From Cyathus striatus (lineage: Eukaryota > Basidiomycota > Agaricomycetes > Agaricales > Nidulariaceae), in assembly GCA_025738555.1 (NCBI GenBank), contig JAOVFP010000017.1:3100001-3164000 (forward strand): a stretch of DNA of 64,000 bases, written 5' to 3'. How positions within the stretch are numbered: the stretch's first letter is position 1; each line of letters begins with the position of its first letter. A program made the translations under genes and the position numbers. Below the pieces are notes generated by a model. The model saw only the letters and a program-made list of their open reading frames with translations, had not been told where the DNA came from and did no database searches. Shown one piece after another: positions 9,884 to 64,000 of this stretch.

Positions 9884-10134
9884 ATGAATCCGTGCGCAGT
9901 ACCTTCCGAGGAATAGAAGTGTTCATCCCCCGTCTTCGTGTGTGACAATTTGCACTCATGTTGTCTCGAGAAGTTTCCATTTTACACGGTCTTGCATCAC
10001 AAGGACATTATTACTGCCTCCATACCGTATTATGCAGATTCCGAAATGTAATCATTTAGTCAGCGCAATCGTCTACTCAAATATGCTGTGAGCCTCCGCG
10101 CTGAATCCGACTTTACGAGTTCCTTACTGTCAAC

Positions 10135-36815: not shown

Positions 36816-37830
36816 GGTGGAAAATAACGGCGCGGAAAGCAGGAGGAAAGTCAAGAAAGGTTTACTCACCTTATATCATTCAGAAGAAGCTAATGCATGA
36901 GAGTCGACGTGCATTTGGATTTGTAAACTTCTCAGATCTATATATAATGAGAGAAGGCCTGGGAATTTGAGGTATAGATGGTGCGTGTGAACGGCCGAAT
37001 GTGATAGCCGCGGATGGTTCATGGGAAATTGCGGTATTTAGAAATTGTTGGAAATTGAAAATAATTGGAAATAATAAATAATAAAATTTTAATGTATATT
37101 TGGCATCTTTACTGTTTTCGGAGGAAATTGATGCGCCGCGGTGCGTCTTTCCTTTTTGGCTAGAGATTGATGGGTTGCTGTACCGATCTGGGATTCTGCT
37201 TAAAACGGATGGATGCAAATATTGTTCAACAAAGTAAATGACTAAGCACGCCACAATGGCTGATTGATGGCTGCACTGATGCAACGAAATTGTGCTGCTG
37301 GGACTTCCTTTCCCTTTCCCCCCTCCCCCCTTGAGTTGTAACAGGACAATAATACAGTACATATTTGTAGATATATACTGGGACTATAAATATTTAAGTA
37401 TTATGAAAATTATTGTGACTGCTGTAGTGATTTATAGTGTATTTGTTATATTTTGAGGTATTGTGATGTGCTGTTTACTGTAATTATATTGTGTTGGAAT
37501 GTTGGAATGTGTTAAATAAGGATATTTATGTGGATAAGAATGGGAGTATAATTGATAAGTTATGATGTATTTGATGGATGGTGTAGTAATTTATAGTGTA
37601 TTATATGTAGTTTGAGTTGATTTTCAGCAATTGATGATGAGAATATTTGGTTGTCAGTGTATAATATGTGTTTAATTGATGTGAATACTGGGAATGATGT
37701 TGAGGAAGATTGGTTGAGATATATTTGTGATGTAATTTATGTGTAAATGGTGATAGGTGTAATATTCAGGAAGACTCTGTTGTTCAGGGCAATTGTTGGG
37801 CTATAAAATATGATATATACAATATGGGTG

Positions 37831-38080
37831 ATATAACCTAAATGAGGTGCAATAAATTAAAGGGAGCTCTAACTGATTGATACTTGATGGGTGATTAATG
37901 TGAATGAGTGTGTGTAGATATAATCTAAATGAGGTGCAATAAATTAAAGGGAACTCATAATTCATTGATACTGGATGGGTGATTGACGTGAATGAGTGTG
38001 TGTAGATATAATCTAAATGAGGTGCAATAAATTATAAGGAGCTCTAACTGATTGATACTCAGTATTGATTGCCTTGGGTG
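37831..38080 (+). repeat. 87-88 bp tandem repeat inside E1 (three copies)
   Basis: Units beginning at the CTAAATGAGGTGCAATAAAT motif occur near 37837, 37924 and 38012. E4 (about 49758) and E6 (about 59037) each carry one copy, so the expansion is specific to E1. Confidence 0.8.
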
Positions 38081-38788
38081 TAGATATAAAGTACACAGGT
38101 GTAAATATGTGAGAATAGAGGACACATGAGGATGTGGGATGTGGATGAATTGGAGATGGTGGAAGGTGGATGCACAATAATGTGGTGTGATTAATGGAGA
38201 TTGCATTGGGTGGAAGTGAACCAAGTGCAAATGATTATCCTTTTCAGGGAGATCTGCGATCATTGTGAGTAGGACAACAAACAACAGAAGATCAAAGCTT
38301 CACTGAAAGAAAGAATCTGTATATCAGGTAGAATATTCTGAGGAGGGACAGTTTCTGAATCTATGGCATACTTAGAGTCTAGAGACCATTGATGAGTAAT
38401 TGATAGACAGTAAATGTTATTGCAGACCTGTTTTGTGAGCAGGTTTTTGAGTATTTTGGTTTTGTTTCACCAGAAAGCCATGTTTGATAGCAGAATTTAA
38501 GAAAGGGGTTGCTGAAATCCAAAGTTGGTTGTGATGAAAAAGAAAAGCATAGTTTACCAAATGGTGACTGGGATCAAATGGGTACCCTACAGCTAAACAA
38601 GACCAAACTGTTAGTATCACATGAACTACACTTCAGTAAGCATCTATGTGTGGATGTGTGTGGATATAAAGCACACAGGTGGATATATTTCTGATGGGTA
38701 AACTGCAATAAATTAAAAGGAGCTCTAACTCATTGATAGAAATAGTTAGAGATATATAAGTGATGCAATTTAAGTGTAAATGATGATG

Positions 38789-39124
38789 GGTGTAGATATA
38801 AAGAACACGGGTGTAGATATAAAGAACACGGGTGTAGATATAAACAACACGGGTGTAGATATAAAGAACACGGGTGTAGATATAAACAACACGGGTGTAG
38901 ATATAAAGAACACGGGTGTAGATATAAACAACACGGGTGTAGATATAAACAACACGGGTGTAGATATAAACAACACGGGTGTAGATATAAACAACACGGG
39001 TGTAGATATAAACAACACGGGTGTAGATATAAACAACACGGGTGTAGATATAAACAACACGGGTGTAGATATAAACAACACGGGTGTAGATATAAACAAC
39101 ACGGGTGTAGATATAAACAACACG
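38789..39124 (+). repeat. E1 minisatellite, 21-bp unit x16
   Basis: Sixteen uninterrupted 21-bp units with core GGGTGTAGATATAAA; units alternate AAG and AAC early, then become uniform AAC toward the 3' side. Being a multiple of three, it reads through as GVDINNT repeats, but the reverse frame is equally open, so coding is not implied. It ends about 25 bp before the 3' module. Confidence 0.95.
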
Positions 39125-39148
39125 GGTAGATATATATTTCATGGGATA

Positions 39149-39346
39149 GCAGGGGGTTTGGGGGGTGCAACCCCCCAAGAAGAAAAAAAGCGGGGGTCTG
39201 GGGGCGCAGCCCCTCAGCCAAAGGACTGGGATTAAGAAGCAGGGGGTCTGGGGGGCGCAGCCCCACAGCAAGCTGTCATCTGTGTGGAGCGGAGGAGGGA
39301 GCCGACAGGCTCCCGTACCCGTAGCGGAGCACGGGTGTAAAGCTTG
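39149..39346 (+). repeat. Helitron 3' module with hairpins (E1 copy)
   Basis: A GC-rich block found at the 3' end of all six complete units (also 47080-47276, 48523-48721, 50451-50649, 57929-58127, 59879-60079). It contains three G-run/C-run hairpins of the types GGGGGGTGCAACCCCCC, GGGGGCGCAGCCCC and GGGGGGCGCAGCCCC, and a terminal stem CCCGTAGCGGAGCACGGG, followed by ten bases ending CTTG. A hairpin about ten bases before the 3' end is the hallmark of Helitron termini. Confidence 0.9.
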
Positions 39347-39809
39347 TCTATATATAATGAGAGAAGGCCTGGGAATTTGAGGTATAGATGGTGCGTGTGA
39401 ACGGCCGAATGTGATAGCCGCGGATGGTTCATGGGAAATTGCGGTATTTAGAAATTGTTGGAAATTGAAAATAATTGGAAATAATAAATAATAATATTTT
39501 AATGTATATTTGGCATCTTTACTGTTTTCGGAGGGAATTGATGCACCGCGGTGCGTCTTTCCTTTTTGGGCAGAGATTGATGGGGTGCACTCGCGATTTG
39601 GGATTCTGCTCAGAACGGATGGAACCAAACGCTCTTCAACAAATTTAAATGACTAAGCATCTTGAAGGGGTTGAGCACAATGCCCAGGCGCGTTATTAAG
39701 CGCATTATTAAGCATTCGACTTTTGGAAATGGGCTGTGCCGCATTGCTGCATGCTGCACTGATGCTGTGCTGCCACCCTTTCTTTTCCTCCCTCCACTTC
39801 TCCCCCCTC

Positions 39810-40700
39810 GATTTTTGGCCTCTCTATCATACTGTAAGTGTTTAGCAACAATGTTGCTTCAATGTGACTGAAATTTCGGATTTTTTGGAAGCCACTGCAC
39901 CATTATATAGTGCATTCTTTGCATTTCTGCGAGTTTTTGCCTATTTTTTAAAATAAAAAATAGCTGCCTATTGAATCTTTTGCTCCCTCCACTCCCCCTC
40001 CCCCTCAATCTTTTGACCTCACCATCCTACTGTAAGTGTTTAGGGATATTATTGCCTCATGTTCACTGAAATTTCGCATTTTTTGGGGCAGCCACTGCAC
40101 TATTCTATAGTGTTTTTCTTGCTTTTCTGCGAGTTTTTGGTGTTTTTTTTTTTTCTTTAACAGGTACTCTGGACCTCTGGACCCTTGGACTTTTGGCTCT
40201 TGGCTCTTGGCTCTAGGCTCTGTGCTCTCTTGGCTCTGGACTTTGGCTCTCTAGCTCTCTGACTCTCTGGCTTCTCTGTGTTCTTTGTTTGTGTATTAAG
40301 TAGGGATTGTGTTTTTGCTGCAGCCGTCTCAGGCATTACAGTGGCAGGAGAATTGGCAGACCAAGGTGAAGTGCAGTGAAGTCCTACCTACCTGGCCTCT
40401 CTTTACGAGTGTTTGCCGGTTGCCACACAGCTCTATTTGTATTAGAGTTGGGACCGCTCTCTGTGCACAGTGTGTAGGGAGATTGGTGTGGTGTATTTTT
40501 CAGTCACCCCCCTTCCTTTTTAGGAAGTAGCTCCATTTTCAACTACCACTGTTTCCACCGATTTCGCCTTTTTTTCTCTGTGTCATTGGGATAGCCCAGC
40601 TGGACCAAATAACTGCTCTATTTATTCACAAGGTATAGAACAAATTCAGTGGCATTCATGTATGTGATTTTGCTTCCTAATGAGTGAGCAGGATGTGTAC
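39810..40700 (+). promoter_or_regulatory. E2 leader: tandem intron-like segments and conserved block
   Basis: Two related segments each contain a TACTGTAAGTGTTTAG donor, a TGACTGAAATTTCG branch-like stretch and a T-tract ending in AAG or CAG, then a CACTAT-type stem-loop (ATTCTATAGTG) and TTTCTGCGAG. A CTCT/TTGGCTC-rich tract follows (40180-40270), then a block from CAGCCGTCTCAGGCATTACA conserved in E5 and E7. Probably the spliced 5' leader of the Rep-helicase transcript; the transcription start is not determined. Confidence 0.55.
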
Positions 40701-40716
40701 TGATCATTGTTTAAAG

Positions 40717-43700
40717 GTCAACTCCCATCAGCGCTGCAGAGCAGGCACGCCAAAATGCACGGCAGGCTGAGCGCGAGTTACGTGTATTGAATACCCCTGA
40801 AAATAGGCAGGAACCTCTGCCTGCTGCTGTAGATGGTCCTGCCCAGCCTCCATATTACCATCTGCCTGCTGATTTGGAGGCCTGGCGTGTGAGCCTTCCT
40901 CCCATTGTGCCACCCATTGGCAGAGGGAGGGGAAGGGGAAGGGGTAGGGGTAGGGGAAGAGGTCAGGGTGAAGAAAATGGTGAATCAAGTACACGAGGTG
41001 ATACAAGTCGTGGTCGACAAAGAGGAAGGGGTACAGTTGCAGCTCAGAGGCAGAATGCTAACCCCCCACTTCCTGTGGAGCATCGTCCAGCTCCTGACAA
41101 TCAGCAAATTATACAATGGAATCCTCCCATGGTTGCAGAGGCAGTTCTGCCACTCCATCATTTGGAAAATATTCAATGGGCTGATAACAATCCACCACAA
41201 CATATTCCTCGCATGCATGCACCCCTGCCTGTAGCTGCTCCTTGGAATAACTTTGTACAGCAAAATATTCCTCACATAAATGTACTGCCCCCTGCCACTA
41301 ATCCTCAGATTCACTGGAATGATCCTGTCATTGCAGAAGATATTCCTCAGCAGAATAACCTGTTGCCAAATATACAATGGGCAGCAAATATTCCCCCACC
41401 TCCTCCTGTTAATCCACTGCAAAACATTCCTCACATAATTACACCTCCTCCCCCAGCTGTTCAAAATGTGCAGTGGGACCATCCAATCATTATTGAAGCT
41501 ATTCCACCTCCTGACATTCCTCCTCAAAATGTACGATGGGCTGCAGATATTCGACGTCCCATCTTCCCTCTTCCTGTAACTATTCCCCAGGTCATTCTTC
41601 CACTTCCCCCTGTTGCTATTCCAAATGTGCAGCAGATTGCTCAAATAATGGCTGAAGCTTTGCCTCCTGCCAATGATCAAGGTGTTCACTGGATGCCTCC
41701 AGTTCTACATCCCAATCCCCTACCAGTATGTGGCTTTTTAGAATGCTTTATTTAACTATTTTAATTATGATGTAAAGATTAATGCCCCTGATATTGCTCC
41801 TGCCACTCAAAATATTCGATGGCATCACCCTGTTCCCACACATCATCGCCCATTCCGTGTTAATCAACAGATTAATGATGAAAATCCTCCTGCTCCAGTT
41901 CCCATTCCTGTAACCCCTTTCCAGGTTAACCCTCCACCTGTTCCTGCTCTTCCTCAGCCATTGCGAGTTAATCAACAAGATACTCCAAATGTACAGGGAA
42001 GCATGCCTGCTCCTCTACCCCCTATCCAGGTTAATCCTCCACCAATTCCTGCTCAACTTCAACTTTTACATATTAATCAACAGAATACTCCAAATGCTGA
42101 AGGCACTCCTGCTCCTCTACATCTTCCACCATTCCAGATTAATCCTACTCCTGCTCCTTTACCTGCTCCTGCTCCCCCTATCCAGGCTAATGCCACCCCT
42201 GCCCTTGCTCCTTTACCTGTTCCTGCTCCTGCTCCTACTCCTGCTCCTGCTCTTCTTCAACCTTTCCGAGTTCATCTGCAAGATCCTACCAATGTACAAG
42301 GAAATGCCCCTGTTACTGTTGAACCATTTCGTGTCTTTCAACATAACCATTCTAACATTCAAAATCATTCTGATTTTCATTGGGTTCCTCCAGTAATGCC
42401 ACCACCACCACCACCACCACCACCACCACCTCTTCCAAATTTTCATTTCATTGAACAATATCCTGCAGTATGTCCAAAATATTACTTTTATTGTCATCAT
42501 ATTAATTTGAATTACAGCCTCCTGTTTTTGTTGAACCCATTATTGCTCATCCACTTCCAATGCCTGCAGTTCCACCTCCACTTCTTCAGTTCAATCCACA
42601 AAACATGATGGTTATTGATGTGCCAGATATTCCTCCAACTCCCACACCACCACCTCCACCCCCACGTCCTCAGCACATTCCTATTGCTCGCCAGCCATTT
42701 GATCGCAATTGGCCAAAATTTACTCTTGGGCATTTCACTGATGTCTGTCCTGACTGTAATGCATTGCATTGGAAGGCTGAACGTTTGACTGCTTCAACCA
42801 GAGAGCGTCTTCAATTTGGAAGTTGCTGTCTGACTGGAAAGGTTAAACTACCAGGCTGGGGCCAATCACCCAGGGAGTTGACAGAGCTGCTCGCAAAGGA
42901 TGGAAACAAGAATTTCCAGGACAATATTCGTCAATACAACTGTGCCTTTGCCATGACATCCATGGGAATTGAGAATAATGCTTCCATCCAGGCTGGAGGT
43001 CCATATGTTTTCAAAATTGGAGGTCGAGTTACTCATTTTGCTGGATCACTCCTACCTCGCCAAGGTCTTCCCAGAAAGTATGCTCAACTCTACATTCATG
43101 ATCCAGCTGAGGCACCTTCACCTCAGGATCGAATTAATGGTCATCCTGCTAATCGTCGTCTTAACATGGATGTCAATGTCATGAGAATATTGGAAGATAT
43201 TCTCTATCGTCATCATCCAGGTGCATCAGTCTATCGGAAGGCCTATCAGGAAATACAGAATAATAACCCTGCTCGCAATTTTCGCCTTGCCATTTGTCGT
43301 CCTGTAGGCACAGACCGACGGCGATACAATGTTCCAACACAAGATGAGATTTCAGTCCTTCTGCTTGGGGATGGTGATCGGGTTGAGGGACCTCGCGAGG
43401 TCATCATGCATCGCCTTGATGGTGCACTGGAGCGAATCAGTGAGGTGAATGCTATGTATTGGCCATTTCACTATCCAATTCTGTTTCCACAAGGTCAACT
43501 TGGATGGCAGCCTGGCATTCTATATCATGGTGTGCAGGAGGTGGATAATGTAGATCATGTGCCCAACAGGCTACCAGGAGAGGAGGAGGATGCACCCACA
43601 ACCAAGAAGCGCAAGCATGTCTCACAAATTGAGCATTTTCGCTACTACATCCATCCACGTATTGGTGAGAATCTTCATCAATTCAGGACAAAGAAGCTCT

Positions 43701-46700
43701 TTCAGGAGTATAGTGTGGATACATGGGCATGTACTGAGCAGGGTCGGTTGCGTTGGATTGATGGCCATCAACCAGAGATCCGTGCTGAAACCTATCAGGG
43801 AATAGTGGATGCCATTGCAGTTAATCCAGATGTGCAAGGGGAAGAACTTGGGAAAAGGGTAATCATTCCATCGAGTTTTGCAGGAAGCACTCGATTCATG
43901 CAGCAGAACTGTCAGGATGCACTGGCTATCAATCGTCACTTTAAGTTTCCAGACTACTTCCTGACAGTGACCATGGATCCCCATCACCCAGATGTGAAGA
44001 GTGCCTTGCCTGAAGGAGTGGAAGCTCATGACCGGCCAGACATTGTGGTTCGGGTGTTTCGTCAAATCCAGCAGCAGATCATCCGAGATATCTACCAGGA
44101 GGGCATCTTTGGACAATGTGTTGCACATATTCATACCATTGAATACCAGAAGCGTGGACTGCCACATATGCATTTAATTGTGTTTGTGGCTCCTGAGGAC
44201 AAGTTGCGCACTCCTGAGGACATTGACAGCATGATCACTGCTGAACTTCCTGATCCTGACACTGAACCTGAGCTGTATGATTTGATTCTGAGAACCATGA
44301 TTCACAAACCCTGTGGTCCTGGCAGCAATCAGTCATGCATGGAGGGTGGCAAGTGCTCAAAGGGATTTCCAAAGGCTTATCGGGATGAGACCATCATCAC
44401 AGATGATTCATATTCTGTTCTGAGAAGGAGGGAGATCACCAGATTTCAGCCCATGACCAGAGATGGGACCCCAGTGAATAACTGCTGGGTTGTGCCATAC
44501 AATCGATATCTGTCATGGAAGTACAGGTGCCACATTAATGTTGAATGCATTGCATCAATCAAGGCTATCAAGTACATTTACAAGTACATTTTTAAAGGCC
44601 ATGATCGTGCTACAGTGGAGTTTTCACAGGAACTGAATGAGATGAAGACATTCTTTGATGCTCGCTATGTCTCTCCCTGTGAGGCTGTGTGGCGACTGTT
44701 TGCATTTAAATTGCATGAGGAGGTCCCAAATGTGGTTCGGCTGTCAATTCATCTTCCAAATGAGCAGTCTGTTATATATGATCAGAATGCTGAAGATGTG
44801 CGGGAGGCAGTGGAGCGTGCATCAACACAAGATACCACTCTTACTGCTTACTTTAAGGCCAACATTGAATACCCAGCAGCAAGAGAGGTTCTGTACCAGG
44901 ACATGCCCAATACCTTTGTGTGGAATAAAACTGAGCGCAAGTGGACACTTCGACAGCGAGGATTTGCCATTGGACGGACATACTTTGTTCATCCAAATGC
45001 TGGGGAGCGATTCTACCTGCGAACATTGCTGACAGTGGTCAAGGGTGCAAAATCCTTTGCAGACTTGCGAACAGTTGATGGAGTTGTGCATCGGACATTC
45101 AGAGAGGCATGTTTGGCCTTAGGACTTCTGCAGGATGATGGTGAATGGAGAGAGTGTTTGCGAGATGCTGCTGCTATGAAGACAGGTTATCAGCTGCGCA
45201 GCCTGTTTGGGACTATTCTTCGAGACTGTGGGCCTGTGGATTATGTGGGACTCTGGAATGAATTTAAGGAACACATCTGTGATGATCTGGGACATATCAT
45301 TCGAACACACCTTCATCTTGCAGATCCTACAGAGGAACAGATCTATGATTATGGGCTGTATCTGATTGATAAATTTCTGATCAGTTCTGGCAAGTCTCTG
45401 TCACAATGGATAGATATGCCACTACCACTACCAACAGAAAACTGGCATGAACGGGAGCAGCAAGCCAACAACAGGAGGGAAGACCAAACAAACAATCCAT
45501 TGATTGCAGTATACACTGCATATGATGTAGTGGAACAGCACGCTCTGGGTCAGGAGCGACTTGCAACTTTGAATGAGGAGCAGCGTGCAGCCTTTGATCA
45601 GATAGTGAGGGCCATTGAGACACAATCTGGGGAACTGTTCTTCTTGCATGGCCCTGGAGGAACAGGAAAGACCTATGTGTACAACACACTATGCTATTAC
45701 CTTCGGGGGGAGGGAAAGATAGTGATTGTTGTTGCATCATCAGGAATTGCTGCTCTTCTGATTGTTGGAGGGCGAACAGCTCACTCTGTGTTCAAGATTC
45801 CAATTGATATCAATGAGACATCAATGTGCAATATTGCACGGGGTCAGATCTTGCTGGGCTGATTGAGAAGGCTGATGCAGTATTTTGGGATGAGGCACCA
45901 ATGCAGCACCGACATATTCATGAGGCAGTGAGCCGGACTTTCAAAGACCTTCGTCGTTCTGATCGACCATTTGGAGGATGCACTGTGGTGTATGGTGGAG
46001 ACTGGCAACAAATCCTTCCAGTGGTGGTACGAGGGAGCCGACCTCAGATTGTGTCAGCATGTCTTCAGAGATCTGATCTTTGGGCAGACATTACTGTAAT
46101 TCACTTGCGACGTAACATGCGATTGAATGTGGAGGATGAATCTGAACGACGATTTGCTGAGTGGCAGCTAGGTGTTGGACATGGAGAGCACACTACAAAT
46201 GAGGAGATTTCAATTCCAAACCACTTCAAGTGCACTTCAAATACTGTGGAGTCACTGATTTCAACTATCTACCCTGGACTTTCATCAGCTGAAGGACATG
46301 GTGATGAGTACTATGCTGAACGAACGATTCTGTCAAGTCGAAATGATGATGTGGATGCTCTGAACTCTCAGATTCTGGCTTCATTTCCAGGGGAGGCAAC
46401 TTCATTGCACAGTGCAGATACACTGCCAGATGATCAACGGTATGATGGGGAACTTCTTTACCCTGTGGAGTACCTGAACACGATCAACTGCTCTGGATTA
46501 CCACTGGCACACTTGGAGTTGAAGATAGGATGTCCTGTGATGGTACTTCGAAACCTGAGTGTTTCTGATGGAGTGTGCAATGGAAGCCGTGGAGTGATTA
46601 CAGGGATACGGAACCGAGTGTTGGAAGTTCGACTGTTAACTGGGGACAGGAGAGGAAGTCGGGTGTTTATACCACGGATGAAGCTTGAACCATCATCTTC

Positions 46701-46950
46701 TCAAGTTCCTTTTCGGTTTTGTCGACACCAGTTCCCTGTTCGACTTGCATTTGCAATGACGATCAATAAGGCACAAGGACAGTCCGTTTCACATGTTGGA
46801 TTGGACCTTCGGAATGGAGTGTTTACACATGGTCAGTTTTATGTTGGAGTGTCTCGAGTACGATCAGTACACCAGATGAAGGTGATTTGGGATGCTAGGA
46901 GTGAAGAATCTGTAACGAAGAATATAGTGTATCCTGAAGTGTTACTTTAG
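40717..46950 (+). pseudogene. Helitron Rep-helicase of E2 (one frameshift)
   Basis: Exons 40717-41725, 41778-42467 and 42518 onward join in frame. The first 570 or so residues are Pro-rich with repeated QWNPPIIAEAIPP-like units and an RGRGRG run. Then come a zinc-like CPDCNALHW, the Rep domain with HUH motif PHMHLIVF and tyrosine motif KYIYKYIFKGHD, and a PIF1-type superfamily 1 helicase (GPGGTGKT, VFWDEAPM, GGDWQQILPVV, AMTINKAQGQS, GVSRVRS). At 45840-45843 a G-run has four G where intact E5 has five, shifting the frame between Walker A and B; the second half continues in another frame (45826-46950). A sequencing slip is possible. HUH nucleases nick and rejoin single strands in rolling-circle transposition. 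Confidence 0.9.
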
Positions 46951-47276
46951 TATGTTGTAGATACTGTAGATAAGATTTTAGTAGTGTTCAGTAGTGTACT
47001 ATGTTTATATTGATATATATATATATATATTAAAAATAAGTAATGAATTGGAAAAAGAATAAATAAGTTAAAATATCAAGCAGGGGGTTTGGGGGTGCAA
47101 CCCCCCAAGAAGAAAAAAGCGGGGGTCTGGGGGCGCAGCCCCTCAGTGTTTGGAACTGGGATTAAGAAGCAGGGGGTCTGGGGGGCGCAGCCCCACAGCA
47201 AGCCGTCATTCGTGTGGAGCGGAGGAGGGAGCCGACAGGCTCCCGTTCCCGTAGCGGAGCACGGGTGTAAGGCTTG

Positions 47277-48721
47277 TCTTATATATAATGAGACAAGGCG
47301 TGTGAATTTGTCCGAAAATGTGTGGGAATTACTGTATTTGGGGGATTTCGATGGATTGGGATGAAATTTGGATATTTCGGGAAATGTTGCCTTTAATGTA
47401 GTGTATGGCAGTATTTGTGACGAACTGCCACTTTGGGTGGGAATCGATGGATCTGAAGCGATTTGGCAGGGAAATGACTAAGCTTCTTGAAATGTGTGTG
47501 CCACAATAGATAAATGACTAAGCTTCTTTCCATGTGCACGCCACAATGGCTGGAGTTATGCTGCTGGGACTTCCTTTCCCTTTCCCCCCTCCCCCCTTGA
47601 GTTGTAACAGGACAATAATACAGGATATATTTGTAGATATATACTGGGAGTATAAATATTTAAGTATTATGAAAATTATTGTGACTGCTGTAGTGATTTA
47701 TAGTGTATTTGTTATATTTTGAGGTATTGTGATGTGCTGTTTACTGTAATTATATTGTGTTGGAATGTGTTCCCCCCTTGAGTTTGGTACCACAATTAAA
47801 TAAGGATATTTATTTGGATGTATAATAAGTGTGTAATTGATAGAAATACTAGGAGGGATGATATATAGATTCAGGATATGTGTATAGTTTCTGATTTTGG
47901 TGGATAGGTTTATATTTGGGGATTGAGGAATATTGATATATATGACATGGGTGACATATATGATATATATCAGACAGGTATATAAATAGCAGTTGATATT
48001 TGGGGATTGAGGAATATTGAGATATACCACATGGGTGATATATATGATATATGAAGATCACAATAGGATTATAATTGATAAATAATAAATAATTTGATGG
48101 GCACTGTAGTAATGTATGGTGGATATACAAATGTTCTTGGTGTATATCTTGAGTGTAATGAATAAAAATAGTGAAGACTAAGGCTTCATGAAAAGAAAGA
48201 ATCTGTATATCAGATAGGATATTCTGAGGAGGGACAGTTTCTGAATGTACAGTATACTTAGAGTCTAGAGACCATTGATGAGTAATTGATAGACAGTAGG
48301 TGTTATTGCAGACCTGTTTTGTGAGCAGGTTTTTGAGTATTTTGGTTTTTTTTCACCAGAAAGCCATGTTTGATAGCAGAATTTAAGAAAGGGGTTGCTG
48401 AAATCCTATGTTGGTTGTGATGAAAAAGAAAAGCATAGTTCACCAAATGGTGACTGGGTGTTGATATAAACAACATGGGTGTAGATGTAAAATACATGGG
48501 TAGATACATGGCTCATGGGTTAGCAGGGGGTTTGGGGGGTGCAACCCCCCAAGAAGAAAAAAAGCGGGGGTCTGGGGGCACAGCCCCTCAGCCAAAGGAA
48601 CTGGGATGAAGAAGCGGGGGGTCTGGGGGGTGCAGCCCCACAGCAAGCTGTCATCTGTGTGGAGCGGAGGAGGGAGCCGACAGGCTCCCGTACCCGTAGC
48701 GGAGCACGGGTGTAAAGCTTG
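47277..48721 (+). mobile_element. Helitron unit E3, non-autonomous
   Basis: A 1.4-kb unit starting TCTTATATATAATGAGAC and ending AAGCTTG. It carries the pyrimidine-rich CCTTTCCCTTTCCCCCCTCC stretch and the AAGAAAGAATCTGTATATC segment shared with E1, E4 and E6, but only about two degenerate minisatellite units (about 48458-48510) before the 3' module. No coding sequence. Confidence 0.85.
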
Positions 48722-50649: not shown

Positions 50650-51070
50650 TCTATATATAATGAGAAGAGGCCTGGGAATTTGGGTTTATATGGCGCGTGG
50701 GACAGGCCGGAATTGGGGGGGGGAAATTACGCGTTCAGGTAAATTTCGATAAATCGAGGTGTGGGGCTTGCCATGTATAAATTTATTATGGAAAATAGAA
50801 ATGTGGCTGTTTTGGGATGGAAATTGATGCGCGCACAGGCATCCTGCCGCTTTCGGTTGAGATGGGTGGCTGCGCTCGCAATTTGGGAGGGCGTTGATGG
50901 CTCCCAACCTAAAACGGCGAGGTAAATGACCAATCATCTTGAGCCGCTTGCTGAGGGGCATGACTAAGCATTTGGAGATGGAGCGCGGCCGCGCAGCAAT
51001 GGGGCGCATGCTGCACTGATGCTGTGCTGCTATCCTTTCCCCTGCTCCCCCCCACTTTCCCCCCTTTATT

Positions 51071-51970: not shown

Positions 51971-51983
51971 TAATTATTTAAAG

Positions 51984-54900
51984 GTCTACCACTCCTATCA
52001 GTGATGCAGAGCAAGCTCGCTTAAATGCACGGCAGACTGAGCGTGACTCGCATGCTTTGGGCACTCCTGAAAATAGACGTGTGCCTCTGCCTGCTGACCC
52101 CCTGGCCCAATCAGTGTATCACCATCTTCCTGCAGATTTGCAAGCAAGGCTTGCCAGCCTTCCTCCCCTTCTGCCACCCATTGGAAGGGGAAGGGGTAGA
52201 TGTCGTGCTCAAGAGGGAAATAATATTCCTGCCCCTCCAAACCAGCAAAACATACAATGGAATCCTCCAATTATTGCTGAGGCAATTCACCCACACAATC
52301 ATCATCTAAATGCTCAATGGGTTGATGACATTCCACCACAACATATTCCTCGCATGCATGCACCTCCCCCTCCAGCTGCTCCTCAGATACACTGGAATGC
52401 TCCAATTATTGCTGAGAATGTTCCTCCACATCGTAACACACCTCCAAATATACAGTGGACTGCAGATATTCCTCCTACACCTATTATTCCACCACAAAAT
52501 ATTCCTCACATTCATACACCTCCTCCCCCAGCTGTTCCAAATGTGCAATGGAATCCTCCAATAATTGCAGAAGCCATTCCTCCAGTCAATGTTCCACCTC
52601 AAAATATACGATGGGCTGCACGTAACCCTCAGCCTGTTGTTCCTCCTCCTCTGGCTGTTCCCCAAGGCATTCTTCCCCCTCTTCCAGCAGCTGTTCCAAA
52701 CATTCAGCTTAATGCTGAAGCTTTGCCCCCACACACTGACCAAGGTATTCGATGGATGCCTCCTGTTCTACATTACAATCCCCTGCCAGTATGTGGGTTT
52801 TAGAAATGTTTCAACTAACTATGCTAAATGTTATTATTTAAAGATTGATGCACCTGAAGTTCCTCCTGCTCCCCAAAATATTCAATGGAATAATCCTGTC
52901 CATGCACATTCTGCCATTCCTCCCCCCTTTTCAAGTCAATCAGCAAGATCCTGCTGTCATTCAATTGAATGCTCCTGCTCTGGCTCCCATTCAGATTCCT
53001 CCTTTCCAAGTGAATGCTCCCACTCCCCCACCACCATTTCAGAATAATCAGCTTCCCACTTTTCAAGTCAATCATCAAATTCCTCGCAATGTTCAATTGA
53101 ATGCTCCTGCACTTGCTCCCATTCATATTCCTCCTGTTCATGTAAATATTCAAAACCCTCCAGATATTCAATGGAATTCTCCCATTACTACACCCTCACT
53201 TCCATTGCAGAATAATCAGGAAGTTTGCCCTATTTTGCAGTGGAATCCTCCCCCTCAAATTCGTGTTCTTCCACAAATCCCCCCTCCTCCTCCTCCTCCT
53301 CCTCCCCAATTTCAACGGTTCCAATTTATTGAACTCAACCCTCAAGTAAGTGAGGAACTTTACTCTTATATTCATTATATTAAATCATATTGCAGCCTCC
53401 TGTCTATGTCGAATGGCATGCCCCAGTAGTGGCTCATCCAGTGCCAATACCTGCAGTTCCTGCTCCTGCTCCCCCACTACAATTCAATCGAAACATCATT
53501 GTAATAGATGTACCAGACATTCCCGCACCTCCACCACCTCCTCCCCACATTCCCATTGCTCGCCAGCCATTCAATCATAATTGGCCAAAATTCTCACTTG
53601 GACCATTCACTGATGTCTGTCCTGACTGTGATGCCTTGCATTGGAAAGCTGAACGTTTGACTTCATCCACCAGAGAGCGCCTTCAATTTGGAAGTTGCTG
53701 TCTGACTGGAAAGGTTAAACTTCCAGGTTGGGGCCAATCACCCAGGGAGTTGATGGAGCTACTTGGCAGGGATGGAAACAAGAATTTCCAGGACAACATT
53801 TGTCAATACAACTGTGCCTTTGCCATGACATCCATGGCAGTTGAGAAGAATGCTTCCATCCAGGCTGGAGGTCCATATGTTTTCAAAATTGGAGGTCGTC
53901 TCACACATTTTGCTGGATCACTCCTGCCTCGTGAAGGTCTCCCCAAAAAATATGCTCAGCTGTACATTCATGATGCAGCTGAGGCACCTTCAGCTCAGGA
54001 TCGAATTAATGGCCATCCTGCTAATCGTAATCTTAACATGAATGTTAATGTCATGAGAATATTGAAAGACATTCTCTATCGTCATCATCCAGGGGCATCA
54101 GTCTATCAGAAGGCTTATGAGACAATACGGAACAATAATCCTGCTCGCAACTTTCGCCTTGCCATTTGTCGTCCTGTAGGGACAGATCGACGGCGATACA
54201 ATGTTCCAACAGCAAATGAGATTGCAGTTCTTCTGCTTGGTGATGGTGATCAGGTTCAGGGACCTCGTGAGGTGATCATGCATTGCCTTGATGGTCGACT
54301 GGAGAGAATCAGTGAGGTGAATGCAATGTATTGGTCATTTTACTATCCAATCCTGTTTCCACAAGGTCAACTTGGATGGCAGCCTGGCATTAAATATGAT
54401 GGGGTGGAGGAGGTGGATAATGTGGATCATTTGCCCAACAGGCAACCAGGACAGGAGGAGGATGCACCCACAACCAAGAAGCGCAAGCATGTCTCACAAA
54501 TTGAGCATTTTCGCTACTACATCCATCCACATGTTGGTCAGGCACTTCATCAATTCAGGACAAAGAAGCTCTTTCAGGAGTATATTGTGGATACATGGGC
54601 AACCACTGAGCAGGGTCGGTTGCGTTGGATTGATGGTCATCAACAAGAGATCCGTGCTGAAACCTATCAGGGAATAGTGGATGCCATTGCTGTTAATCCA
54701 GATGTGCAAGGGGAGGATCTTGGGAGAAGGGTGATCGTTCCATCCAGTTTTGCAGGAAGTGCTCGATTCATGCAGCAGAACTGTCAGGATGCACTGGCCA
54801 TCAACCGGCACTTTAAGTATCCAGACTACTTCTGCACAGTGACCATGGATCCCCATCATCCAGATGTGAAGAGTGCCCTCCCTGAAGGGGTGGAAGCTCA

Positions 54901-57817
54901 TGATCGGCCAGATATTGTGGTTCGGGTGTTTCGTCAAATCCAGCAGCAGATCATCCGAGATATCTACCAGGAGGGCATCCTTGGGAAATGTGTTGCACAT
55001 ATCCATACCATTGAATACCAGAAGCGTGGACTGCCACATATGCATTTAATTGCATTTGTGGCTCCTGAGGACAAGTTGCGCACTCCTGAGGACATTGACA
55101 GCATGATCACTGCTGAACTTCCTGATCCTGAGACTGAACCTGAGCTGTATGATTTGATTCTGAGAACCATGATTCACAAACCCTGTGGTCCTGGCAGCAA
55201 TCAGTCATGCATGGAGGGTGGCAAGTGCTCAAAGGGATTTCCAAAGGCTTATCGGGATGAGACTATCATCACAGATGATTCATATTCTGTTCTGAGAAGG
55301 AGGGAAATCACCAGATTTCAGCCCATGACCAGGGATGGGACCCCAGTGAATAACTGCTGGGTTGCACCATACAATCGATATCTGTCATGGAAGTACCGGT
55401 GCCACATTAATGTTGAATGCATTGCATCAATCAAGGCTATCAAGTACATTTACAAGTACATTTTCAAAGGCCATGATCGCGCTACAGTGGAGTTTTCAAG
55501 GGAACTGGATGAGATGAAGACATTCTTGGATGCTCGCTATGTCTCTCCCTGTGAGGCTCTGTGGCGACTGTTTGCATTTAAATTGCATGAAGAGGTCCCA
55601 AATGTAGTTCGGCTGGCACTTCATCTTCCAAATGAGCAGTCTGTTATATATGATCAGAATGCTGAAGATGTGCAGGAGGTGTTGGAGCGTGCATCAACAC
55701 AAGATACCACTCTTACTGCTTACTTTAAGGCCAACATTCAATACCCAGCAGCACGGGAGGTTCTGTACCAGGACATGCCCAATACTTTTGTGTGGAATAA
55801 AACTGAGTGCAAGTGGACAGTTCGGCAGCGAGGATTTGCCATTGGACAGACATACTTTGTGCATCCAAATGCTGGGGAGCGATTCTACCTGCGAACATTG
55901 CTGACAGTGGTGAAGGGTGCAAAATCCTTTGCCAACTTGCGAACAGTTGATGGAGTTGTGCATCAGACATTCAGAGAGGCATGTCTGGCTTTAGGCCTTC
56001 TGCAGGATGATGGTGAATGGAGAGAGTGTTTGCGGGATGCTGCTGCTATGAAGACAGGTTATCAGCTGCGCAGCCTGTTTGGGACAATTCTTCGAGACTG
56101 TGGACCTGTGGATTATGTGGGACTCTGGAATGAGTTTAGGGAACACATCTGCGACGATCTGGGACACATCATTCGAACACACCTTCATCTTGCAGATCCT
56201 ACAGAGCAACAAATCTATGATTATGGGCTGTATCTGATTGACAAATTTCTAATCAGTTCTGGCAAGTCTCTGTCACAATGGATAGATATGCCACTACCAA
56301 CAGAGAACTGGCGTGAACGGGAGCAGCAAGCCAACAACAGGAGGGAAGACCAGTCAAACAATCCATTGATTGCAGTATACACTGCATACAATTTATTGGA
56401 ACAGCATGCTCTGGGTCAGGAGCGACTGCAGACTTTGAATGAGGAGCAGCGAGCAGCCTTTGATCAGATAGTGCAGGCCATTGAATCTAAATCTGGGGAG
56501 CTCTTCTTCTTGCATGGCCCAGGAGGAACAGGAAAGACCTATGTGTACAACACACTATGCTATTACCTTCGGGGGTCAGGAAAGATAGTGATTGTTGTTG
56601 CATCATCAGGGATTGCTGCTCTTCTAATTATTGGAGGGCGAACAGCTCACTCTGTGTTCAAGATTCCAATTGACATCAATGAGACATCAATGTGCAATAT
56701 TGCATGGGGGTCTGATCTTGCTGGGCTGATTAAGAAGGCTGATGCAGTGTTTTGGGATGAGGCACCAATGCAGCACCGACATATCCATGAGGCAGTGAGT
56801 CGCACTTTCAAAGACCTTCGTCGCGATAATCGAGCATTTGGAGGATGCACTGTGGTGTATGGTGGAGACTGGCAGCAAATCCTTCCAGTGGTGGTGCGAG
56901 GGAGCCGAGCTCAAATTGTGTCAGCATGCCTTCAGAGATCTGATCTTTGGGCAGACATTACAGTGATTCACTTGCAACGTAACATGCGATTGAATGTGGA
57001 GGATGCAGATGAACGAGATTTTGCTGCATGGCAACTGGCTGTGGGTCATGGAGGGTACACTGTTGATGAAGATATCCAAATACCAAATCACTTCAAGTGC
57101 ACTTCAAATACTGTGGAGTCACTAATTGCAACAATCTACCCTGGACTTGATTCAGCTGAAGGGAATGTAGATGAGTACTATGCTGAGAGAACGATTCTGT
57201 CAAGTCGAAATGATGATGTGGATGGTCTGAACACTCAGATTCTGTCTTCATTCCCAGGGGAGGCGACTTCACTGCACAGTGCAGATACACTTCCAGATGA
57301 TCATGGGTATAATGGGGAGCTTCTTTACCCTGTGGAGTACCTGAACACGATCAACTGCTCTGGATTACCACTGGCACACTTGGAATTGAAGATTGGATGT
57401 CCTGTGATGGTACTTCGAAACCTGAGTGTTTCTGATGGAGTGTGCAATGGAAGTTGTGGAGTGATTACAGTGATACGAAACCGAGTGTTACAAGTGCGAT
57501 TATTAACTGGGGACAAGAGAGGATCACAGGTGTTCATACCACGTATGAAACTTGAACCATCTGCTTCACAAGTGCCATTCCGGTTTTGTCGACATCAGTT
57601 CCCTGTTCGACTTGCATTTGCGATGACAATCAATAAATCACAAGGACAATCAGTTTCACATGTTGGATTGGATCTTCGGAATGGGGTGTTTACACATGGG
57701 CAGTTTTATGTTGGAGTGTCTCGAGTTCGATTAGTTGGTCAGATGAAGGTGATTTGGGATGCCAGAAGTGAAGAAGCTGTAACAAAAAATATAGTGTACC
57801 CTGAAGTGTTACTTTGA
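51984..57817 (+). CDS. Helitron Rep-helicase of E5 (main exon intact)
   Basis: Exons 51984-52788, 52844-53345 and 53396-57817 by comparison with E2. The last exon alone codes more than 1470 residues without a break: DIPAPPPPPPHIPIARQPF, CPDCDALHW, QYNCAFAMTS, the HUH motif LPHMHLIAF, KYIYKYIFKGHD, GELFFLHGPGGTGKT, VFWDEAPMQ, GGDWQQILPV, QRNMRL, AMTINKSQGQS and GVSRVR. The N-terminal part has the Pro/Trp repeats (NIQWNPPIIAEAI ... NVQWNPPIIAEAIPP). Exon 2 is one base too long (502 nt) because of an extra base near 52920-52930 in a CCCCCCTTTT run, so full-length translation may be broken there. An internal start in the last exon could still give the Rep-helicase core. Confidence 0.88.
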
Positions 57818-58127
57818 TTTATGATTGATACTGTAGATAAGATTTTAGTAGTGTTTGGTAGTGTATGATATATATATTTTGAAAATAAGTGATGAATTGG
57901 AAAAAGAGATTTGAAGCTCAAATATTAAGCAGGGGGTTTGGGGGGTGCAACCCCCCAAGAAGAAAAAGAAGCAGGGGTCTGGGGGCGCAGCCCCTCAGCC
58001 AAAGGACTGGGATTAAGAAGCGGGGGGTCTGGGGGGCGCAGCCCCTCAGCAAGCTGTCATTCGTGTGGAGCAGAGGAGGGAGCCGACAGGTTCCCGTTCC
58101 CGTAGCAGAGCACGGGTGTAAGGCTTG

Positions 58128-60079
58128 TCTATATATAATGAGAGAAGGCCTGGGAAAGCGGATATAGATGTAAGTGTGGGAACGCTAATTGGGGATAAGC
58201 TGCGAATGGTGCGTGTGAAGGGCCATTTCCGATATCCGCATTTGTCGTGGGAAACTTGCGATGTTTAGGTTTGTGTCTTGGAAGGGAAACTTGCAGTTTT
58301 GGGTTGGAATTGATGCGCCCGCGAGGGTCTTGCCATTTTTAGTTGAGATTGATGGGTGGTGTACTAATCTGGAATTGTGCTATAAACGGATGGATACAAA
58401 CCATGTTCAACAAAGTAAATGACTAAGCACGCCACAATGGCTGATTGATGGCTGCACTGATGCAACGAAATTGTGCTGCTGGGACTTCCTTTCCCTTTCC
58501 TCCCTCCCCCCTTGAGTTGTAAGAGGACAATAATACAGCATATATTTGTAGATATATACTGAGACTATAAATATTTAAGTATTATGAAAATTATTGTGAC
58601 TGCTGTAGTGATTTATAGTGTATTTGTTATATTTTGAGGTATTTTGATGTGCTGTTTAGTGTAATTATAATGTGTTGGAATGTGTTCCCCCTTTGAGTTT
58701 GGTACTCCAATTAAATAAGGATATTTATGTGGATAAGAATGGGAGTATGATTGATAAGTTATGATGTATTTGATGGATGGTGTAGTAATTTATAGTGTAT
58801 TATATGTAGTTTGAGTTGATTTTCAGCAATTGGTGATGAGAATATTTGGTTGTCAGTGTATAATATGTGTTTAATTGATGTGAATGCTGGGAATGATATT
58901 GAGGAAGATTGGTTGAGATATATTTGTGATGTAATTTATGTGTAAATGGCAATAGGTGTAATATTCAGAAAGACTCTGTTGTTCAGGGCAATTGTTGGGC
59001 TATAAAATATGATTTATAAGACATGGGTGATATAACCTAAATGAGGTGTAATAAATTAAAGGGAGCTCTAACTGATTGATACTCAGTATTGATTGCAGAG
59101 GGTGTAGATATAAACTACACAGGTGTAAATATGTGAGAATAGAGGACACATGAGGATGTGGGATGTGGATCAATTGGAGATGGTGGAAGGTGGATGCACA
59201 ATAATGTGGTGTGATTAATGGAGATTGCATTGGGTGGAAGTGAACCAAGTGCAAATGATTATCCTTTTCAGGGAGATCTGCAATGATTGTGAGTAGGACA
59301 ACAAACAACAGAAGATCAAAGCTTCACTGAAAGAAAGAATGTGTATATCAGATAGAATATGCTGAGGAGGGACAGTTTCTGAATGTACAGGATACTTAGA
59401 GTCTAGAGACCATTGATGAGTAATTGATAGACAGTAGGTGTTATTGCACACCTGTTTTGTGAGCAGGTTTTCCAATATTTTGTTTTGTTTCATCAGAAAG
59501 CCATGTTTCATAGCAGAATTTAAGAAAGGGGTTGCTGAAATGCAAAGTTTGTTGTGATGAAAAAGAAAAGCATAGTTCACCAAATGGTGACTGGGATCAA
59601 ACAGGTACCCCACAGCTAAACAAGACCAAACTGTTAGTATAACATGATTTACACTTCAGTAAGCATCTATGTGTGGATGTGTGTAGATATGAACCTACAC
59701 GGGTGTAGATATGAACCTACACGGGTGTAGATATGAACCTACACGGGTGTAGATATGAACCTACACGGGTGTAGATATGAACCTACACGGGTGTAGATAT
59801 GAACCTACACGGGTGTAGATATGAACCTACACGGGTGTAGATATAAAATACATGGGTAGATATATGCCTCATGGGTTAGCAGGGGGTTTGGGGGGTGCAA
59901 CCCCCCAAGAAGAAGAAAAAAAGCAGGGGTCTGGGGGCGCAGCCCCTCAGCCAAAGGACTGGGATTAAGAAGCAGGGGGTCTGGGGGGTGCAGCCCCACA
60001 GCAAGCTGTCATCTGTGTGGAGCGGAGGAGGGAGCCGACAGGCTCCCATACCCGTAGCGGAGCATGGGTGTAAAGCTTG
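58128..60079 (+). mobile_element. Helitron unit E6, non-autonomous
   Basis: A 2.0-kb unit from TCTATATATAATGAGAG to AAGCTTG. The middle resembles E1 and E4, with the 22-bp minisatellite 59681-59834 before the 3' module. The terminal hairpin carries an ACGGG to ATGGG change that still pairs as G-T. No transposition gene. Confidence 0.85.
59681..59834 (+). repeat. E6 minisatellite, 22-bp unit x7
   Basis: Seven identical 22-bp units, core GTGTAGATATGAACCTACAC. Related to the E1 and E4 units but with one extra base and CCT inserted, so this array was built from its own founder. Confidence 0.95.
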
Positions 60080-63000
60080 TCTTATATATAATGAGAGAAG
60101 GCGTGGGGAATTTGGGTATATAAGTAGCATGGGACAGCCGCTTTCGTGTGGGAAACTTGCCATGTTGAGAGGGGCATCAGTATTTAGAAAAAAATTACTG
60201 TATTTAGTATTTTTTCGTTTTTGGGTGATTGTGAGTGTTTTTTTCGAAAGGTGATCACTGATGGAGGGGGGACCTTCCCATTTTGGACTGGGGATTGATG
60301 GGGTCAATGGCCTCTGCCTGAAACGGAAGGATGCAAACGATGTAAAATAAAGAAAGTAGATGACTAAGCTTCTTCAAAAGGTCGCGCTGCATGATGAGGC
60401 GCATTGCATTGCAATCATTACTAAGCGATTTGTAAGTAGATGGCGCGCCGCGCCGCCACATTGCTGCAATGCTGCACTGATGCTGTGCAGCTGCCATTTC
60501 CTTTGCTCCCCCCACTCTCCCCCCCCCTTTATTTCATGCCCCACTATCATACAGTATGTGTTTAGCCACAGTTTTACTTCATTCTGACTGAATTTTCGCT
60601 TTTTTTGGCAGCCACAGCACCATTCTATAGTGTTTTTCTTGCATTTCTGCGAGTTTTTGCCTATTTTTGGGTATCTTTGGACCCCTTCTGGACCTGATTT
60701 CACTTCCCCCTTGATTTTTTACCCCCCCATCCCACTGTATGTTCTCAGGCACATTATTGCTTCATGTTGACTAAAATTTCGCATTTTTTGGCAGCCTCTG
60801 CACTATTCTATAGTGTTTTTTCCTTCCATTTTTGCAAGTTTTTGGTGTTTTTTATTTATTTAACAGGTACTCTGGACCTCTGGACCCCTTGGACTTTTGG
60901 CTCTTGGATCTAGGCTCTAGGCTCTGTGCTCTCTTGGCTCTGGACTTTGGCTCTCTGGCTCTCTGGCTCTCTGGCTTCTCTGTGTTCTTTGTTTGTGTAT
61001 TAAGTAGGGATTGTGTTTTTTGCTGCAGCCGTCTCAGGCATTACAGTGGCAGGAGAATTGGCAGACCAAGGTGAAGTGCAGTGAAGTCCTACCTACCTGG
61101 CCTCTCTTTACGAGTGTTTGCCAGTTGCCACACAGCTCTATATATATTAGAGTTGGGACCGCTCTCTGTGCACAGTGTGTAGGGAGATTGGTGTGGCATT
61201 CTTTCAGTTGCCCCCTTCCTCTTTAGGAAGTAGCTCCATTTTCAACTACCACTGTTTCCACCGATTTCGCTTTCTTTCTTTGTGTCATTGGGATAGCCCA
61301 GCTGGACCAAACAACTGCCCTATTTTTTCACAAGGTACAGAACAAATTCTGTGGCATTCATGTAAGTTATTTCACTTCTCCATGAGTGAGTGAGTTGAAT
61401 GCATGCTAATATTGTTAATAATTGGTTTAAAGGTCAACTCCAATTGATGCTGCAGAGCAGGCTCACATAGATGCACGGCAGGCTGAGCGTGATGCACGTG
61501 CTTTGGACACCCCAGAAAATAGGCATGTGCCTCTGCCTGCTTCTGATGCTCCTGCCCAGCCTGTGTATCCCCACCTTCCTGCTGATTTGGAAGCAAGACG
61601 TGCCAACCTTCCTCCTCTTCTGCCACCTATTGGGAGGGGAAGGGGAAGAGGTAGGGGAAGGGGAAATGGTGATTTAAATGCAGGTGGTCTGCAACGTGGT
61701 AGGGGTAACAATGGTGGAAGGGGAAGAGGCAGAGGTAGAGGTCGGAGGGGAAACCAGAATCCTCCACCTCCTGTGCAATATAACCCAGCTCCCCCAAATC
61801 ATCAAAATATACAATGGAATCTTCCAATTGTTGCAGAGGCCATTCACTCACATGATAATCACCCTCAAAGTATTCAATGGGTGAATAACTTGCCCCCACT
61901 GGATATTCCTCACATGAATATGGGTGCCCCTGCAGCTGTTCCTCAGGTTGCATTTCAGCCACAAAATATTCCTCACATAAATGCACTGCCTCCTGCACCA
62001 CCCCCTGTACCTGCCCCTCAGTTTCACTGGAACAATCCTGTTGTTGCAGGGGATATTCATCCACATAATAATGTACCTCTGGATGTACACTGGGCTGCAG
62101 ATATTCACCCACCCATTAATCCACTGCCTCTTGCACCACCCCCTGCACCTGCCCCTCAGTTTCACTGGAATGAACCAGTGGTTGCAGATGACATTCATCA
62201 ACACAATAATATGCATCTGAATGTACACTGGGCTGCAAATATCCACCCACCTATGAATCCACCTCTGGCACCTATTGTTCCTGTGCAACATGTTCCCCAC
62301 ATCAATACACCTGCTCCACCAGTTGATCGCAATGTACAATGGAATCCTCCAATAATTATTGAAGCCACTCCTCCTCCCACCATTCAGCCTCAAAATATAC
62401 AACAGACTGAAAATATTCCTCCACAGAATATCCATCCTCCAGGGGATCCTCTAATAATTATTGAACATCCTCATGTTCAGCTTCCTCCTGATCATTTTCC
62501 TGTAAGTGTTATTCTTAAAAGCTTAAATTTATAATTTTACTAATTATTACTTTAAAAGGTAAGACAAAATGTACAGTTTGCTGAAGCTGTCATTCCTCAA
62601 AATCCATTAAATATTCGATGGAATGCTCCCTTTCCTGCTCCTCCCCCTGTTCGTCCTTTTCGTGTCAATCAACAATATCCTCCAAACTTTGAACAAAATG
62701 CCCCTGCTCCTGTTCCTGCTCCTGCTCCTGTGCAAGTTCCTCCATTTCATATTTATCAACAAATTACACCTAATATTAATTTAAACCCACCTATTGCTGC
62801 TCCTCCCACTCCTGTGTTTCATCCTGATCCTCCAAATATTGAACAGAATCTTCCTGCTCCAGTTGCCATCCATCCATTTTGGGTGAATCAACAGATTCTT
62901 CCTGAAAATGAACAGAATCCTCCAAATCCTGTTGCTATTCAGCCATTTCAACTTATTCAGTTTAATCCACCAACTCCACCTGCTCCCTCCCCCTCCCCCT

Positions 63001-64000
63001 CCCCCCTCCTCCTCCTCCTCCCCCTCCTCCTGCTCCTCCTGTGCATATCCCCATATTTCAAGTCATGCCACAAATTCCTCAAAATATTGCACCACCACCT
63101 GACTTTCCACCTCCTCTACGCTTTGTTGCAGAATACCCTGTGGTAAGTACAGATATTATTATTATTAATAATATTCTAACATATTATTTAGCCTCCCATG
63201 CAGGTTGAATGGGATATTCCTGTACTTGCTCATCCACAGCCAATTCCTGATCCAATACAAGTAGATCACAATATCATGGTTATAGATATACCAGATATTC
63301 CTCCACCTCCTCCACCTCCTCTCCGCCCCCCCCTCCTCCACAACTTCCTATTGCTCGCCGTCCATTTAATCGCAATTGGCCAAAATTCACACTGGGTCCA
63401 TTCACTGATGTCTGCCCAGACTGCAATGCATTGCACTGGAAAGCTGAACGTTTGACTGCATCCACCAGGGAGCATCTTCAGTTTGGAAGTTGCTGTCTGA
63501 CTGGAAAGGTTAAACTTCCAGCTTGGGGCCCATCTCCCAGGGAGTTGACAGAGCTGCTTGCAAAGGATGGAAACAAGAATTTCCAAGACAATATTCGTCA
63601 ATACAACTGTGCCTTTGCCATGACATCCATGGGAATTGAGAATAATGCTTCCATCCAGGCTGGAGGTCCATATGTTTTCAAAATTGGAGGTCGAGTTACT
63701 CATTTTGCTGGATCACTCCTACCTCGCCAAGGTCTTCCCAGAAAATATGCTCAGCTGTACATTCATGATCCAGCTGAGGCACCTTCACCTCAGGATCGAA
63801 TTAATGGTCATCCTGCTAATCATCGTCTTAACATGGATGTCAATGTTATGAGAATATTGGAAGATGTTTTTTATTGTCATCATCCAGGCGCATCAGTCTA
63901 TCGGAAGGCCTATCAGGAAATACGGAACAATAATCCTGCTCGCAATTTTCGCCTTGCCATTTGTCGTCCTGTAGGCACAGACCGACGGAGATACAATGTT
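60080..64000 (+). mobile_element. Helitron unit E7, Rep-helicase coding, cut by window end
   Basis: Starts TCTTATATATAATGAGAG. The leader has intron-like segments (about 60540-60665 and 60715-60850) with the CACTATTCTATAGTG stem, a TTGGCTCT/CTCTGG tract (60895-60975) and the conserved block from 61026. The coding region begins at 61433 and runs out of the window. Confidence 0.88.
61433..64000 (+). pseudogene. Helitron Rep-helicase of E7, partial and frameshifted
   Basis: Exon 1 61433-62501 has STPIDAAEQAHIDARQAERDARAL, TPENRHVPLPA, RGRGRGRG runs and NIQWNLPIVAEAI-type repeats. A second exon from 62559 (VRQNVQFAEAVIP) continues the Pro-rich region, and another from about 63192 leads to QVEWDIPVLAHP. 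The frame breaks in C-rich runs near 62985-63010 and 63330-63345; the conserved block (NWPKFTLGPFTDVCPDCNALHW) and what follows are read in other frames up to 64000. Disrupted, unless the homopolymer counts are wrong. Confidence 0.8.

Follow-up and report, generated by a model that had tools for sequence, protein, structure and literature searches.

Stacked Helitrons in Cyathus striatus: probable leftward growth by insertion at the left ends of resident elements

Introduction

How does a series of transposons come to lie head to tail without a single base between neighbours? The question is raised by a 64,000-nucleotide stretch of the Cyathus striatus genome, hereafter the window (GenBank assembly GCA_025738555.1, contig JAOVFP010000017.1; C17:3100001-3164000 in the labels C1, C5, C17 etc. 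used here for the 24 contigs of this 107 Mb assembly; positions without a contig label are those of the window). From position 36937 to its right edge, the window is filled with Helitrons. A preliminary description of the window explained the arrangement by successive insertions at the 5′ edge of the array. Comparison across the assembly makes it quite likely that this holds in a more specific form: copies of one Helitron type, here called M, appear to insert preferentially, repeatedly and exactly at the site where the left end of a resident Helitron is cleaved, and the stacks would grow leftward. This reading is drawn from sequence comparison.

The stack in the window

The array begins, as had been described, after a host A, which lies at 36936; the host sequence there reads ...CTCAGA. 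It continues on the forward strand through seven M-type units: E1 (36937-39346, 2410 bp), E2 (39347-47276, 7930 bp), E3 (47277-48721, 1445 bp), E4 (48722-50649, 1928 bp), E5 (50650-58127, 7478 bp), E6 (58128-60079, 1952 bp) and E7 (60080-64000, running past the window to C17:3167940). The six zero-gap junctions reported in the preliminary description were found exactly in place, at 39346/7, 47276/7, 48721/2, 50649/50, 58127/8 and 60079/80, each reading CTTG|TCTATATATAATGAG or CTTG|TCTTATATATAATGAG, and the shared orientation was confirmed by seven left ends on the forward strand and none on the reverse strand. The count of seven is correct for the window but not for the stack, which is cut by the window edge and comprises 12 units (C17:3136937 to 3189066), with zero bases between units throughout. 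Five further units lie to the right of E7; the last belongs to another type, C, and the stack closes with CTTG|TAGATC.

Extent of stacking in the genome

Exact copies of the left end TCTATATATAATGAGA number 98 genome-wide, and those of TCTTATATATAATGAG 64. Eight of these are stub copies (see below) at two loci, leaving 154 left ends of this main motif; counts from exact patterns are lower bounds that miss decayed ends. CTTG directly precedes 116 of the 154, and two more follow mutated 3′ ends (CTAG, CCTG), so that 118 stand directly after the 3′ end of another Helitron. The remaining 36 are heads, by which we mean left edges: left ends without a preceding Helitron 3′ end. The largest stacks hold about a dozen copies. 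Within the main motif, the 16 copies starting TCTATATATAATGAGAGAAGGGTGGGAAA, found in a search that allowed up to two mismatches, were classed as type C and the remaining 138 as type M. Two other left ends were distinguished, type A (TCTAAATAGAAAGAGA, 19 copies) and type B (TCTATTTATGAAGAG, a single copy).

The assembly-wide junction search proposed in the preliminary description gave 68 and 48 matches for the two junction patterns, against 0 for the reversed-pattern control of each, which excludes a chance origin of the junctions. Repeats are prone to misassembly and duplication, and the arrays might in principle be assembly errors or local duplications. There is, in our judgement, hardly any room for this explanation, given that units within a stack are unlike, that the same exact joint is present at dozens of loci, and that such errors would not be expected to leave founder types all on one side.

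Order within stacks

For each junction, the left neighbour was taken to be the closest listed left end on that strand, up to 16 kb away, a rule under which an unlisted, decayed unit may separate two listed ones; the left side of C22:485655 lies outside the stretches covered. Among the junctions with a listed left neighbour (11 of the 128 had none within 16 kb), the left|right combinations were M|M (99), M|C (9), M|A (6), M|B (1) and A|A (2), and A|M, B|M, C|M and C|C were never seen. The non-M element is rightmost in 16 of 16 mixed stacks (p ~7e-12 for random order). When 15 C-type 3′ ends were compared by eye with the left-end lists, none stood directly before a listed left end.

On its own, this pattern is mirror-symmetric and silent on which side is older. 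It would equally suit growth to the right, in which newcomers join the stack at its 3′ edge (CTTG|T) and the A, B and C elements come last; a GT option was raised for maize by Du et al. (2008, PMC2267711). The direction is revealed by the stack at C1:2492459-2518908, at whose right end lies the unique B left end and at whose left edge, 25 kb away, stands TCTATTTA, the first eight bases of that same end. Since the B left end is unique, the B element must have come first, and eight M units were inserted between it and its stub. Rightward growth is thus very improbable: it conflicts with the position of this stub to the left of eight M units and with the presence of stubs only at left edges, it would require insertion at G|T and not A|T, and the age trend described below runs, weakly, the opposite way.

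Between the two A founders at C1:941347 and C21:1295939, similarity is limited to the initial ~320 bp (98.8%), which have the same inner end in both. Although the standard 3′ end is missing at that point, 8 and 10 M units are stacked on these founders; a left end therefore seems to be enough for a target. A coding stretch beside the founder at C1:941347 was considered as a captured gene and dropped, because the part shared with the C21 founder ends after ~320 bp; it was treated as host sequence. Five frames of this stretch gave one Pfam-matching protein (ICMT/PEMT family).

Stubs at left edges

We call a stub any prefix of a Helitron left end, of at least 4 nt, that lies immediately left of a stack head. 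Left edges were surveyed at 45 places (36 of type M or C and 9 of type A; four of 49 rows were dropped, being junctions), and A directly precedes the left end in all 45. Stubs occur at 11 of them, with 38 prefixes in all. Two of these 11 edges are weak cases (TCTA twice; TCTAAA), a cut-off of at least 6 nt leaves 10 of the 45, and an imperfect stub at the C21:1323031 head is outside the 11. All 38 stubs start with TC. Each also has A as its last base, a letter that occupies just 53% of the possible end positions, and the base to the left of the outermost stub is A in 11 of 11. Control counts were 17 of 9727 A positions in host DNA (window bases 1-36900) and 44 of 3178 in the outer flanks of heads, the latter figure including parts of long stub runs. 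The 38 stubs are not independent: 16 belong to one run (C9:1758137-1758309, reverse strand) that resembles a local duplication, which leaves 22. In this run, pieces of the left end are repeated at a 22-bp period beside the stack head.

At three heads (C15:725577, C9:1717934 and C9:1758152), the nearest stub is of a type other than the head's own, as expected if the present head arrived later. No stubs were found before M left ends inside stacks, in a search that required the exact end GTAARGCTTG. The solo element at C5:629108, whose 3′ end is followed by a host T, carries a 14-nt stub, which indicates that stubs can occur where no insertion is visible; for this reason we do not favour the view that every insertion leaves a stub as its by-product. 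In the A stack at C3:5149807, two units are listed and two stubs are present, and a third unit is possible, the right end lying beyond the stretch covered. The idea that stubs arose when elements inserted at A|T sites within left ends was dropped, since matching cut left ends were not found.

Two accounts of the stubs were retained. Plain replication slippage stays in contention, but it does not readily explain why all stubs run from TC to A or why some differ in type from the head. Alternatively, stubs may be aborted nick-extend-rejoin events, a proposal for and against which we find the case evenly balanced.

Exactness of the target

The preliminary description reasoned that an element inserted at A|T leaves A next to its own T and so regenerates the target at its 5′ edge. 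The direction of growth agrees with this idea, but regeneration alone is insufficient. Extrapolation from the host sequence of the window gives ~15.5 million A|T sites genome-wide. If elements chose freely among these, ~0.002 of 174 insertions would be expected at a left edge, against 128 junctions counted; free choice cannot explain the stacking.

Within the M left end itself, the dinucleotide A|T occurs four times. When left ends truncated at any of the first three of these sites and attached to a 3′ end were searched for, 8 matches came up, none recognised as a cut left end: C7:4306854 and C14:712539 are shortened, complete left ends joined at the proper edge, C1:2670198, read in context, is a C-type end in unrelated DNA, and the printed letters of the remaining matches are unlike cut left ends. 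Unbiased A|T insertion, with the left edge as one site among many, does account for the A before all 45 left edges and for the T that begins 9 of 9 right host flanks. The excess of junctions and the lack of insertions at the internal sites searched nevertheless make it extremely improbable, and what is targeted seems to be the cleavage site of the element itself and not A|T in general.

Similarity and age of the units

Single units were compared in six stacks with 47 units, out of 72 stretches fetched by place; unit C1:1205494, which has a second head inside it, was excluded. These data bear on the possibility that stacks are rolling-circle concatemers or read-through products, with several units copied and inserted together. 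Helitrons form head-to-tail circles, and published work connects tandem arrays with rolling-circle copying. Neighbours are also slightly more alike than expected, the direct neighbour being the best match in 7 of 47 units (2.6 expected, p 0.026), and the adjacent units C1:920158 and C1:927815 are 94.8% identical. Yet there are no near-identical neighbours among the 47 units, and no ordered pair of units is common to two stacks, the sole above-threshold pair being weak and confined to the window's stack. The two closest unit pairs (97.8%) lie in different stacks; E2, for example, is 97.8% identical to C1:908160, the leftmost unit of another stack. Concatemers predict neither the founder order nor the B stub, and we consider them improbable. 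The preference of the preliminary description for successive 5′-edge insertion over simple concatemer copying is thus upheld by the B stub, the 16 mixed stacks and the unlikeness of the units.

A gradient with younger units to the left, also proposed for testing there, emerged only weakly. Within stack and size class, the ratio of observed to expected CpG (CpG o/e) declines towards the right-hand units (S = -32 of 110 pairs, p 0.020); this ratio and terminal branch lengths are also sensitive to composition and sampling. For coding units of the window's stack, CpG o/e is 0.39, 0.36, 0.33 and 0.30 at positions 2, 5, 7 and 11, and the coding terminal branches at positions 2, 5, 7, 11 and 12 measure 0.003, 0.018, 0.059, 0.041 and 0.298. 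Its non-coding units are less regular (CpG o/e 0.56, 0.34, 0.34, 0.37, 0.43, 0.47 and 0.31). The coding branches of the stack at C1:906660 are 0.003, 0.011 and 0.018. These signals lean weakly towards younger units on the left and are supportive without being strong; the suggestion that E1 is the youngest unit fits the trend but is not proven by it.

Two stacks, C1:640926-648525 and C1:1203994-1232126, show strong CpG loss along their whole length (CpG o/e 0.06-0.12 and 0.17-0.35). Their 3′ ends carry C>T/G>A changes, as from cytosine deamination or a process like repeat-induced point mutation.

Several points weigh against leftward growth by insertion at resident left ends, besides the mirror symmetry of the founder pattern and the slight likeness of neighbours. 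The stub that proves the order is known from one stack only, and insertion at an internal joint of a stack (G|TC) remains compatible with the data. The age trend is weak, and without the C and B founders it falls to S = -27 of 97 (p 0.033). Coding branches are reversed both in the stack at C1:2490959 (0.043 then 0.024) and in that at C1:1203994 (0.571 then 0.043), where the first is a rearranged, poorly aligned unit; the non-coding units of the C21 and C1:640926 stacks lack a clear fall in CpG o/e.

Proposed mechanism

We propose that an M-type newcomer targets the A|TC left end of a resident Helitron of type M, A, B or C. The resident would be nicked at A|TC, as if starting its own transposition, the CTTG 3′ end of the newcomer would be joined to the freed 5′ TC of the resident, and the flanking A would be joined to the TC of the newcomer, which would thereby become the next target. 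The host A would stay at the outer left edge while the stack grew leftward and the founder remained rightmost. The transposase may treat the resident left end as a target because this is its own recognition and nick site. The Helraiser transposase is reported to make exact head-to-tail joints and to cleave exactly there; such recognition of the joint led us to propose a resident left end preceded by A as the preferred target. Stubs could arise, with the balance of doubt mentioned above, if the A freed by a nick at A|TC were extended by a few bases and the strand then rejoined at an A.

No stubs were found at left ends inside stacks, which are preceded by G, and this suggests that such ends no longer start transposition. 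A bolder version, which we offer tentatively and consider rather doubtful, is that the insertion of M-type Helitrons is specific to the left ends of Helitrons and that each newcomer takes the A of the resident and so silences it. Only the head would then start, and the aborted starts of successive heads would be recorded, in order of time, in the stubs to its left.

Identity and coding content of the window units

The family consists of RepHel Helitrons with 5′ TC and 3′ CTTG ends. All seven window units begin with TC, and A|T insertion, as in canonical Helitrons, which insert there without target duplication, is apparent from the bases flanking the left and right edges. The 3′ end of E1 (39318-39346) consists of a hairpin followed by 11 nt up to the CTTG end, and the same form recurs at 47248-47276, 48693-48721, 50621-50649, 58099-58127 and 60051-60079; in all six complete units, the hairpin arm thus ends 11 nt before the unit end (canonically ~10-12 nt). 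The units end in CTTG and not in the canonical CTRR, which is a known deviation among Helitrons, because the family HELPO2 of Pleurotus ostreatus is reported to end likewise (PMC4289320).

RepHel, a Rep HUH domain with a Pif1-like helicase, is encoded in E2, E5 and E7, whereas tblastn with the E5 RepHel found no match in E1, E3, E4 or E6; the mixture of coding and non-coding units given in the preliminary description stands. Across the window's stack, units of 7.5-7.9 kb match RepHel and those of 1.4-2.4 kb do not. The reading frame in E5 (53384-57817, forward strand) is uninterrupted over 1477 codons and matches the Helitron_like_N, PIF1 and Pif1_2B profiles. In its translation, read by eye, we see what we take to be the HUH, double-Tyr and Walker A motifs. 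Its best protein matches reach 55% identity, and the named matches lower in the list are plant proteins. In E2, RepHel (42506-46950, forward strand) is split over two overlapping frames (42506-45862 and 45817-46950), with Helitron_like_N and PIF1 matches. The E7 copy, part of which lies beyond the window edge, contains one stop, and that of the unit at position 11 contains six. The last unit, of type C and 6.4 kb, has best DNA matches of only ~77-78% identity, and its RepHel is 66-74% identical to that of E5.

A 21-22-bp minisatellite containing GTGTAGAT is present in E1, E3, E4 and E6 (38788-39134, 48455-48501, 50269-50429 and 59681-59844), a few hundred bases before the 3′ end; by eye, a small hairpin seems possible in some units. 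On the host side, the window contains three consecutive carboxylesterase-family frames (10105-10641, 12620-13111 and 16987-17586) and pieces of a glycosyl hydrolase family 31 gene (27282-28874, reverse strand).

Comparison with known systems

Tandem Helitrons and the idea of insertion at a 5′-edge A/T are already known; the scale, the order and the stubs are new. Centromeric Helitron arrays in plants were reportedly described by Xiong et al. in 2016, under a title that credits rolling-circle amplification. Tandem arrangement is common to those arrays and ours, but the Cyathus units are unlike each other.

A close parallel is maize, for which the report of Du et al. (2008, PMC2267711) describes adjacent unlike Helitrons with an exact 3′-end|TC joint, reads them as consecutive insertions and points to the host A, together with the first element's T, as a possible A/T target. 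The joint between unlike elements is the same; that report concerns one pair, whereas Cyathus has many ordered stacks, with the order proven in one. In Metarhizium acridum, also a fungus, three Helitrons likewise lie in tandem, but this is a single case with non-canonical, Helitron2-like ends (Chellapan et al. 2016, PMC5148889). HELPO2 shares, by its description, AT insertion, the CTTG 3′ end, the subterminal hairpin and RepHel with the Cyathus family; the word 'tandem' is absent from the main text of that paper (PMC4289320). No report of founder-ordered stacks or stubs was found in the literature searched, with most subscription papers outside the search.

The maize report left open both the choice between consecutive insertion and rolling-circle copying and the order of events (PMC2267711). 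As the Cyathus stacks preserve order, both questions become directly testable. They also preserve, layer upon layer, the record of a transposon family, and they suggest that by landing on another Helitron an element can spare its host.

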